A program made the translations under genes and the position numbers. The notes beneath the pieces are model-generated. The model was not told where the DNA came from and did no database searches. It saw only the letters and a program-made list of their open reading frames with translations. From Bradyrhizobium betae (lineage in GTDB: Bacteria; Pseudomonadota; Alphaproteobacteria; Rhizobiales; Xanthobacteraceae), in NCBI RefSeq assembly GCF_008932115.1, contig NZ_CP044543.1, forward strand, positions 6,082,501 through 6,146,500: DNA of 64,000 nt. The letters run 5' to 3'. Positions 49,382-52,451 of the stretch are shown in pieces. Position 1 is the stretch's first letter. Every line of letters starts with the position of its first letter.

Positions 49382-50713
49382 ATGGCCTCTGCAGCGGAAC
49401 AACTTGCAGCAAATCTCAATTTCGGTGCGTTTGCCAAGGCCGACGAACTGAAGAAGCGCATCTGGTTCACCCTGGGTGCGCTGCTGGTTTATCGGCTCGG
49501 GACCTACATTCCGCTACCCGGCATCGATCCCAACATCTGGGAGCAGGTGTTCCGCTCCCAGGCGGGCGGCATCCTCGGCATGTTCAACATGTTCGCCGGC
49601 GGCGGCATCCACCGCATGGCGATCTTCGCGCTGAACATCATGCCGTACATCTCGGCCTCGATCATCATCCAGCTCCTGACCACCGTCTCGCCGCAGCTCG
49701 AGGCGCTGAAGAAGGAAGGCGAGGCCGGCCGCAAGCTGCTGAACCAGTACACCCGCTATCTGACGGTCATCCTGGCCGCGTTCCAGTCCTACGGCATCGC
49801 GGTGGGCCTCGAGGGCGCCGGCAACGTCGTCAGCGACCCCGGCATGTTCTTCCGTCTCTCGACCGCGATCACGCTGACCGGCGGCACCATGTTCCTGATG
49901 TGGCTGGGCGAGCAGATCACCTCGCGCGGCATCGGCAACGGCATCTCGCTGATCATTCTTTCCGGCATCGTCGCCGAGCTGCCCGCGGCGCTCGCCAACA
50001 TGCTGGAGCTCGGCCGTCAGGGCGCGATGTCGACCGGCCTGATCCTGGTCGTCATCATCATGGCGGTCGCCGTGATCGCCTTCATCGTGTTCGTGGAGCG
50101 CGCCCAGCGCCGGCTGCTGATCCAGTATCCGAAGCGCCAGGTCGGCAACAAGATGTTCGAGGGCCAGTCCTCGCATCTGCCGCTCAAGCTCAACACCTCG
50201 GGCGTGATCCCGCCGATCTTCGCGTCCTCGCTGTTGCTGCTGCCGACCACGGTGGCCAACTTCAACGCGGGCAGCGGACCGGAATGGTTCCAGTGGATCA
50301 CGACGCAGCTCGGCCACGGCCGTCCGCTGTTCCTGATCATGTATCTCGCGCTGATCGTGTTCTTCGCGTTCTTCTACACCGCGATCGTGTTCAACCCGAC
50401 CGAGACCGCGGACAATCTGAAGAAGCACGGCGGCTTCATTCCGGGCATCCGCCCGGGTGAGCGCACCGCGGAATATATCGACTACGTGCTGTCGCGCATC
50501 ACGGTGCTCGGCGCGATTTATCTCGCGATCGTCTGCTTGATCCCTGAGATCCTGATCTCCTACGCTTCGGTGCCGTTCTACTTCGGCGGCACCTCGCTGC
50601 TGATCGTCGTCAGCGTCACCATGGACACGGTGGCACAGGTGCAGGGCTATCTGCTGGCCCATCAGTACGAAGGCCTGATCCGCAAGTCGAAGCTGCGGGG
50701 CCGTCGCCGCTAA
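49382..50713 (+). CDS. secY: Preprotein translocase subunit SecY
   Basis: SecY, 443 residues, with ten membrane helices. The plug and helix 2 region contains FNMFAGGGIHRMAIFALNIM. The conserved cytoplasmic loops PKRQVGNKMFEGQSSHLPLK and FIPGIRPGERTAEYID are intact. It forms the inner-membrane protein-conducting channel with SecE (encoded at 15590) and SecG. GGGAGA precedes the ATG. adk follows after 276 bp. Confidence 0.98.
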   Translation: MASAAEQLAANLNFGAFAKADELKKRIWFTLGALLVYRLGTYIPLPGIDPNIWEQVFRSQAGGILGMFNMFAGGGIHRMAIFALNIMPYISASIIIQLLTTVSPQLEALKKEGEAGRKLLNQYTRYLTVILAAFQSYGIAVGLEGAGNVVSDPGMFFRLSTAITLTGGTMFLMWLGEQITSRGIGNGISLIILSGIVAELPAALANMLELGRQGAMSTGLILVVIIMAVAVIAFIVFVERAQRRLLIQYPKRQVGNKMFEGQSSHLPLKLNTSGVIPPIFASSLLLLPTTVANFNAGSGPEWFQWITTQLGHGRPLFLIMYLALIVFFAFFYTAIVFNPTETADNLKKHGGFIPGIRPGERTAEYIDYVLSRITVLGAIYLAIVCLIPEILISYASVPFYFGGTSLLIVVSVTMDTVAQVQGYLLAHQYEGLIRKSKLRGRRR

Positions 50714-50989: not shown

Positions 50990-51895
50990 ATGAGAATTAT
51001 ACTTCTGGGACCGCCGGGGTCAGGCAAGGGGACCCAGGCGCAGCTGATGGTGCAGCGCTATGGTATCGTCCAGCTGTCGACCGGCGAGATGTTGCGCGCG
51101 GCCGTCGCGGCGGGAACGCCGGTCGGCCTCAAGGCCAAGGAAGTCATGGCCAGCGGTGGCCTCGTGCCCGACGACGTCGTCGTCGGAATCATCTCCGACC
51201 GCATCGACCAGCCGGATGCCAGAAACGGTTTCATTCTCGATGGCTTTCCGCGCACCGTGCCGCAGGCCGAAGCGCTGGATGCGCTGCTCAAGCAGAAGCA
51301 TCTCAAGCTCGACGCCGTGATTGAGCTTCGCGTCAACGAGAGTGCGCTGCTGAGCCGCGTCGAGACTCGCGTGGCCCAGATGCGGGAGCGCGGGGAGGAG
51401 GTCCGGGCCGACGATACCCCGGAGGTCCTGACCAAGCGTTTGGCCAGCTACCGCAACCAGACCGAACCGCTGATTCACTACTATTCGGAACGGCGGAAGC
51501 TCTCGACCATCGACGGCATGATGGCGATCGACGAGGTCACCGGCGCCATCCACCGCCAGCTCGTGGCGCTCGGGGCGACCGAATCCAAGGCGCGTGCCAA
51601 GAGCACGTCCAACAGCACTTCCAAGAGCGCTTCCAAGAGCGCTGCCAGGGCGGCCCCCGCCAAGAAGGGAGCGGCGAAGGCCAAAATGGCCAAGAAATCG
51701 GCGAAAACAGCCAAAAAGCCTGCCAAATCCGCTAAGAAAGCCGCCAAGAAGGCTGTGAAGGGTACGAAAAAGGCGGCCAAGAAGACCGTCAAGAAAGCCG
51801 CGAAAAAGGCTGCCCGGAAGTCCGCGAAGAAGTCCGTCAAAAAGGGTGCCAAAAAGGCCGCAAAAAAGGTCACGAAAAAGCGAGCTAAGCGCTAG
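50990..51895 (+). CDS. adk: Adenylate kinase with histone H1-like Lys/Ala-rich C-terminal tail
   Basis: A 301-residue protein. Residues 1-195 are a complete short-lid adenylate kinase: P-loop [10 protein letters not shown] (7-16), LSTGEMLR (29-36), the AMP-binding region, DGFPRT (84-89), and a short lid with no zinc cysteines. The enzyme makes 2 ADP from ATP and AMP. Residues 198-301 are an extra tail with about 39 Lys, mostly Ala between, Ser/Thr and no acidic residue beyond Glu198; AKKAAKK-type units repeat as in histone H1 or AlgP/HC1 proteins. Normal adenylate kinases of this type end near 185-220. The ATG at 50990 has GGGGGG upstream. The tail could bind nucleic acid or rRNA. It lies between secY and rpsM as is usual. 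Confidence 0.9.
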
Positions 51896-52082
51896 CAGCG
51901 GTTGACGAAAGCCCCCTGAATCCCCTAATAAGCCCCGCATCCAAGTCGGATAGTTTCAAACGATGCCGGGCCCCAGGAAGACTAGGGGTGGGCGTCGTGT
52001 TCGCGTTTGTGAACACCTGCCCGAGAAACAAAGCACTTAAAGACCGGTTCCTGACGAGGGATCGGCAACAGGAGAGAGAGCC
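51896..52082 (+). other. adk-rpsM intergenic region
   Basis: 187 bp without a gene. A GTGTTC-N8-GAACAC hairpin lies at 51997-52016. It may contain a promoter for the alpha group of genes, but none was assigned. Confidence 0.4.
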
Positions 52083-52451
52083 GTGGCCCGTATTGCCGGC
52101 GTGAACATTCCGACCAACAAGCGCGTGCTCATCGCGCTCCAGTACATCCATGGCATCGGCCAGAAGATTGCCGGTGAGATCCTCGAGAAGGTGAAAATTC
52201 CCGAGGATCGTCGCGTCAATCAGCTCAGCGACGCCGAAGTGCTCCAGATCCGCGAAGTGATCGACCGCGACTATCTCGTCGAGGGCGATCTGCGTCGTGA
52301 GGTCGGCATCAACATCAAGCGTCTGATGGACCTCGGCTGCTATCGCGGTCTGCGCCATCGTCGCGGCCTGCCGGTGCGCGGTCAGCGCACCCACACCAAT
52401 GCGCGCACGCGCAAGGGTCCGGCCAAGGCCATCGCCGGCAAGAAGAAGTAA
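52083..52451 (+). CDS. rpsM: 30S ribosomal protein S13
   Basis: S13, 122 residues, from GTG at 52083 with CAGGAGAGAG upstream. [20 protein letters not shown] and the C-terminal [20 protein letters not shown] are typical. It contacts tRNA and S19 in the 30S head. It is the first gene of the alpha group, followed by rpsK after 123 bp. Confidence 0.98.

Follow-up and report, generated by a model that had tools for sequence, protein, structure and literature searches.

A lysine/alanine-rich tail on the adenylate kinase of Bradyrhizobium betae, with a coding end that meets a promoter-like element before rpsM

The adk locus and its Lys/Ala-rich tail

We analyzed a window of 64,000 nucleotides from Bradyrhizobium betae (contig NZ_CP044543.1), in which the adenylate kinase gene (adk) lies between the genes for SecY and ribosomal protein S13 (rpsM). 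See Table 1 for the coordinates of the features described here. The secY–rpsM interval is an ordinary place for adk, and the initial annotation's view of this position as notable holds only in another sense, as the 3′ end of adk meets a conserved promoter-like element before rpsM. The open reading frame runs uninterrupted from an ATG at 50990 to a TAG at 51893–51895 and encodes 301 residues.

Up to residue ~191, Adk is a short-lid adenylate kinase of the ordinary type. Pfam ADK (PF00406) matches at 187.2 bits against a gathering score of 26.8, with the match stopping at residue 168, and the short-Adk model NF001381 stops at residue 191. A comparison with the sequences of solved structures gave 96 matches at E ≤ 0.001, including the 181-residue 1p4s_A, which spans residues 1–187. 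The P-loop GPPGSGKGT (residues 7–15) fits the GxPGxGKGT motif of adenylate kinases. From family membership, the protein is predicted to catalyze ATP + AMP = 2 ADP. A structure prediction, built with 16 close sequences, was too poor for use (mean pLDDT 44), and the core failed too.

Past the enzyme core, Adk carries a genuine polycationic extension, with the frame open to residue 301 as the initial annotation had read it. That annotation gave the tail 104 residues and about 39 Lys; there are indeed 39 Lys codons (13 AAA and 26 AAG), but the length is 105 residues (197–301), with one acidic residue. Counted from residue 192 to the end, the 110 residues include 39 K, 5 R, 32 A, 2 Pro, and a single D/E. 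The tail is thus histone H1-like in composition, as had been proposed, being Lys/Ala-rich and nearly without acidic residues over ~100 residues. The AKKAAKK-like units described earlier are likewise present, and the tandem KPAA repeats of the AlgP/PhaF C-terminal domain are absent.

Tailed Adk is already known to annotators, because the full-length NCBIfam model NF010381 (PRK13808.1; 335 positions) covers residues 1–299 at 491.9 bits, above its cut-off of 426. This model describes the same protein family, tail included; its name, "adenylate kinase," covers the enzyme alone, and we found no tail function attached to it. NF010381 scores above its cut-off in 4 genomes among 150 from the order, and these 4 belong to the same genus as B. 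betae, the tailed relatives in other genera lying outside the scored set. One deposited protein (P0066) bears the depositor's name "Adenylate kinase EC 2743 histone protein." Literature searches aimed at an adenylate kinase tail, judged at the level of title listings, found none naming such a tail. We also looked in the B. betae genome for a paralog from which the tail might derive; among the 150 of 330 candidates scored, only adk itself was found at E ≤ 1e-3.

Table 1. Features at the adk–rpsM junction, in window coordinates
Feature	Position	Strand	Basis
secY (SecY), upstream neighbor of adk	49382..50713		
adk catalytic core, short-lid adenylate kinase, residues 1–196	50990..51577	+	P-loop GPPGSGKGT, profile matches
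Lys/Ala-rich tail, Adk residues 197–301 (stop codon 51893–51895)	51578..51892	+	
Conserved DNA AAAAAGGTCACGAAAAAGCGAGC, encoding KKVTKKR plus the first bases of the following Ala codon	51863..51885	+	Silent-site constraint, retention in tailless genomes
Promoter-like element TTGACG-N17-CTAATA before rpsM	51902..51930	+	Conservation across genera
Conserved hairpin ACGAUGCC...GGGCGUCGU in the rpsM leader, past the promoter-like element	51960..51998	+	
rpsM (ribosomal protein S13), first gene past the promoter-like element	52083..52451	+	

Distribution of the tail among relatives

Comparison with relatives confirmed the tail and excluded a local error. All of the best 80 of 156 related records have a tail of 78–112 residues with the same frame open. 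Among the window's own protein and its best 120 matches (P0001–P0121), 118 of 121 end in a tail that is ≥ 60 residues long and ≥ 25% Lys, the exceptions being P0007, P0036, and P0042. We then read the end of adk in all genomes of an even sample of the family (75 genomes from 41 genera, completeness ≥ 90%), calling a tail at ≥ 40 residues and ≥ 20% K+R. The tail is present in 42 of the 75 genomes and absent from 33. By genus, it is always present in 24, never in 16, and mixed in 1, so that 25 of 41 genera carry it. These tails span 69–177 residues with net charges of +24 to +58, and the untailed proteins end 3–23 residues beyond the core. The initial annotation had pointed to a stop or frameshift at residues 195–205 in relatives as evidence against the tail; such an end occurs in the 33 untailed genomes and not in the other 42. 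Further sampling would turn more genera mixed, since the genus designated g20 scores "never" in the even sample yet has a tailed locus.

Outside the family, none of 45 loci of the order has the tail, out of 145 non-family genomes in the order sample. These loci comprise 25 from a first reading of 26 (L134 proved to belong to the family itself) and 20 chosen among full-length matches whose open frames were long; matches ending near position 128, which are those of long-lid adenylate kinases, were left out.

On a tree of 87 cores, the tail trait needs at least 11 changes, whereas shuffled labels need 29 on average. Well-supported branches alone require just 2 of these changes, and gain is not separable from loss there. 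The tree was built quickly from a single gene (191 columns), with 77 cores from the family and 10 from outside, and its outgroup did not fall on one side of a branch. It omits L150, which nearly duplicates L149, as well as two second copies (L213 and L214).

Tailless Nitrobacter-type genomes and broken tails

We call g20 Nitrobacter-type because the named proteins nearest to its locus L145 are from Nitrobacter. Six of the seven loci read in this group are untailed and one (L021) is tailed; the tail is therefore dispensable. Most Nitrobacter-type Adk proteins have ~206 residues and the C-terminus RRSGVPMSKFG(V/I)RRW, and other untailed ends are found in P0172–P0174. P0168, P0213 (named Nitrobacter sp.), and P0215 are tailed proteins of 298–301 residues that are 90–93% identical to tailless L145, providing closely related tailed and tailless pairs. 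The untailed g20 loci retain DNA for KKVTKK and RLTK 3′ of their adk stop, which favors tail loss in this genus.

Several deposited tails appear broken. In L215, a same-genus genome, the frame changes where the Adk core ends, and the next frame contains the intact Lys/Ala run. The tails of the Bradyrhizobium-type proteins P0007, P0036, and P0042 are scrambled or cut short, with the look of frameshifts or truncations (two carry the strain names LM4.3 and LB7.1), and P0036 continues in another frame across the promoter-like region. All four may be sequencing errors.

Selection on the charge of the tail

Tail length and residue order drift among relatives, and positive charge is maintained. Over ten independent close pairs, dN/dS is 0.295 in the tail (last 12 codons left out) versus 0.063 in the core, and a tail value near 0.3 points to moderate constraint only. 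The same pairs contain 8 K/R differences versus 1 K/E, each a single A-to-G change, although the counts are small. Across 181 unique Bradyrhizobium-type tails, 16,260 residues past the linker include K 6308, R 920, E 38, and D 14, or 920 Arg versus 52 acidic residues. When 13 flagged rows were removed (3 broken tails and the rest with unusual ends), 169 unique tails remained with R 848, E 27, and D 4; four loci without the anchor motif were uncounted. By column the contrast is weaker than in the totals, with Arg in 36 and Glu in 17 of the 39 Lys-majority columns (34 and 12 without the flagged rows). Selection thus looks to act on the positive charge of the tail and not on its sequence.

A rival reading is a neutral low-complexity expansion, in which units duplicate in a tolerant C-terminus and have no function. 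The range of lengths, the drifting residue order, the 11 or more trait changes on the tree, the loss inside the Nitrobacter-type genus, and the broken tails of P0007, P0036, P0042, and L215 are all consistent with such an origin. However, dN/dS is 0.295 and not 1, Arg far outnumbers acidic residues, and positive tails occur across 25 genera. Because the positive charge is kept by selection, a purely neutral expansion is unlikely. The initial annotation had offered two options, tethering to nucleoid or ribosome and a variable expansion of low complexity, and each describes part of the data: length and order vary, but charge is kept.

The 3′ end of adk and a promoter-like element

The codons AAA AAG GTC ACG AAA AAG CGA occupy positions −10 to −4 of adk and encode KKVTKKR. 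In 83 unique Bradyrhizobium sequences, these 581 codons show 2 silent and 9 amino-acid changes, the latter being one substitution of GTC and eight K-to-R substitutions of the second AAG. Silent divergence is 0.045 (4 changes) in the last 12 codons versus 0.186 in the remaining tail. Furthermore, the six untailed Nitrobacter-type genomes retain AAAGTCACGAAAAAGCGAGC or close variants upstream of TTGACG, outside the adk frame. Because silent sites hardly change and the DNA largely survives in tailless genomes, the conserved C-terminal peptide is, at least in part, a DNA signal before rpsM. AAAAAGGTCACGAAAAAGCGAGC is likely an upstream promoter element or protein-binding site, and we regard it as a candidate for either. 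A protein C-terminus that overlaps promoter-like sequence is a warning that a conserved peptide end need not imply a conserved peptide function.

The promoter-like element lies just downstream. In several genera, its TTGACG supplies the LT codons of a C-terminal RLTKRR, with the TGA of the element serving as the adk stop; among tailed loci, the stop mostly sits inside the element or just before it. The element, mostly TTGAC..GAATCC.YTAATA, lies at or past the adk end in 158 of 221 loci, a TTGAC-anchored count that includes many close relatives. In the even sample, searched from the adk end as far as rpsM or to 400 bases beyond the stop codon, TTGAC..TAATA occurs in 31 of 42 tailed versus 9 of 33 untailed genomes, with no match in the other 11 tailed genomes. 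TTGACG-N17-CTAATA occurs once in the window and never in 100 shuffles. A sigma-70 consensus scan (TTGACA-like −35 and TATAAT-like −10, 16–18 nt apart) did not list the element at 51902, which fails the −10 rule. Judged from its sequence, the element is a putative promoter.

The heptamer A-AAA-AAG at codons −11 to −9 is present in 83 of 83 Bradyrhizobium sequences. We considered programmed −1 frameshifting at this site, and two observations speak against it: the stops in the −1 frame differ between the few loci read, and the DNA mostly persists in tailless Nitrobacter-type genomes.

A possible electrostatic tether

We consider it about an even chance that the tail is a dispensable, non-specific electrostatic tether to polyanions, on a gene whose end overlaps upstream promoter sequence. 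If expressed, ~40 Lys with one acidic residue would hold Adk on rRNA or mRNA, polysomes, nucleoid DNA, or polyphosphate. Tethering would raise Adk activity at sites of ATP turnover with the chemistry unaltered. Such a tail would be beneficial yet dispensable and hence lost several times, and we infer that loss, over repeated gain, would also apply outside Nitrobacter. Codons among the last ~10 would serve a second time, as sequence upstream of the promoter-like element, making KKVTKKR(AK..RLTKRR) at least partly a DNA signal. If the tail does tether Adk, charge alone would position an essential energy enzyme in this bacterium, a natural case that the repeated absence of the tail among relatives makes easy to test.

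Comparable polycationic extensions have been described. AlgP and PhaF of Pseudomonas likewise have Lys/Ala-rich, strongly positive C-terminal extensions, AlgP having a net charge of +55, and the H1-like C-terminus of AlgP is required for the spacing of polyphosphate granules (PMC9239181). Those extensions consist of KPAA repeats on granule- or DNA-associated proteins, whereas Adk has AKKAAKK units on a metabolic enzyme. Actinobacterial topoisomerase I is a housekeeping enzyme with a Lys-repeat C-terminus that holds the enzyme to its polyanion, as reported for Streptomyces, where the lysine repeats keep it on DNA (PMC7398561). The substrate of topoisomerase I is DNA and that of Adk is nucleotides, so the benefit of the Adk tail would be location and not processivity. 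Lys-rich extensions are also carried by eukaryotic aminoacyl-tRNA synthetases. There, too, a terminal polycation sits on an AMP-producing enzyme; unlike these synthetases, Adk has no RNA substrate.

The methionyl-tRNA synthetase (MetRS) of the same genome has an extension of this kind. The KKAAKKA pattern occurs at six places in the B. betae genome, in three genes: adk, an H1-like protein, and MetRS, which has a 144-residue Lys/Ala-rich N-terminal extension (L233:1456-1887, at ~6.85 Mb). The H1-like protein is a stand-alone histone H1-like Lys/Ala protein starting MAKAKKKKSKKAKK (L229, at ~2.175 Mb). We surveyed MetRS by searching 75 genomes and reading 30 loci, with the tailed groups g26, g40, and g46 left out. 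The extension is present in 10 of the 30 loci (3 in the same genus as B. betae, 2 in g17, 2 in g25, and 3 in g20). No coupling of Adk tail and MetRS extension was found among these 30 loci: g6, g28, g43, and g45 are tailed yet lack the MetRS extension, which tailless Nitrobacter-type genomes do have. A shared function of the two is thereby made less likely. A family-wide scheme, in which polycation tags on AMP-cycling enzymes of the translation economy (C-terminal on Adk, N-terminal on MetRS) would build a local energy-recycling zone on RNA or polyphosphate, and in which the 3′ end of the adk tag DNA would be the upstream element of the rpsM promoter, tag and promoter having co-evolved in each other's frame, is a rather improbable extension of the tether. 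Against the tether itself count the 33 of 75 tailless family genomes, the deposited broken tails, and the failure of the MetRS extension to track the Adk tail.

A more specific destination would be the polyphosphate granule, where Adk would be placed at the conversion of polyphosphate to ADP and ATP. AlgP, with its similar Lys/Ala-rich C-terminus, is found at polyphosphate granules (PMC9239181), and Adk cooperates in vitro with polyphosphate:AMP phosphotransferase, according to the title of a reference cited in PMC8776046. However, the Adk tail is without the KPAA repeats of AlgP, and PhaF, with a homologous tail, is reported as abundant yet not enriched in the granule fraction (PMC9239181). 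A word search of the main text of the HP-body preprint PMC11839049 found adenylate kinase unmentioned. We consider specific targeting to these granules very unlikely.

A-rich DNA and lysine codons

Another reading inverts the causality: A-rich DNA upstream of the rpsM promoter would be the selected feature and the Lys/Ala tail its mere translation. Codon usage gives this some footing. The AAA share of Lys codons is 0.36 in Bradyrhizobium tails (last 14 codons taken separately: 0.43) versus 0.03 in cores. AAA-AAG accounts for 552 of the 1091 Lys-Lys pairs in tails of Bradyrhizobium, for 144 of 299 in a middle group, and for 33 of 97 in far relatives; the corresponding counts are 30 of 138 for MetRS extensions, 2 of 20 for an H1-like protein, and 0 of 23 for eleven genes of the window. 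Moving away from the stop, A+T and the share of AAA-AAG drop overall, if unevenly, in the Bradyrhizobium and middle groups. The last codons are constrained at the DNA level. The codon trends hint that the tail was shaped by A-rich DNA close to the promoter-like element, or that its units descend from such DNA.

As the sole cause of the tail, however, A-rich DNA is highly improbable. K-to-R and K-to-E changes disturb A-runs equally, yet R is far commoner, and untailed L161 and L163 have the same promoter-like element without any A-rich stretch. High AAA among Lys codons is also not unique to adk, as other K-rich proteins of the genome raise it too: AAA makes up 12 of 45 Lys codons in the B. betae MetRS extension, 1 of 15 in a portion of the MetRS core, and 9 of 42 in an H1-like protein. 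Over ten MetRS loci, the contrast is weaker (133 of 420 in extensions versus 23 of 114 in cores). Phased A-tracts bending the DNA were considered and rejected, since the spacing peaks at 12, 24, 36, and 48 are codon-locked and not at the helical 10–11.

A sequencing, frameshift, or assembly artefact that hides a real stop near residue 200 has four broken records in its favor and nothing further, and is as good as excluded by the frame that stays open in the best 80 of 156 records and in the tailed family genomes, with protein-level selection.

The leader of rpsM

Between the promoter-like element and rpsM lies the hairpin listed in Table 1. The Rfam family Alpha_RBS matches over the rpsM start (52040–52115) at 31.8 bits, under its gathering score of 38, and weak, below-gathering matches are found in 3 of 7 related loci. 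In a scan of the window, no Rfam family matches 51960–51998 at E ≤ 1, and the hairpin is possibly an undescribed ribosomal leader. In 34 aligned loci (of 35, with L148 omitted), 3 of 14 predicted pairs have changed on both sides with pairing kept, although the covariation term is small (−0.29).
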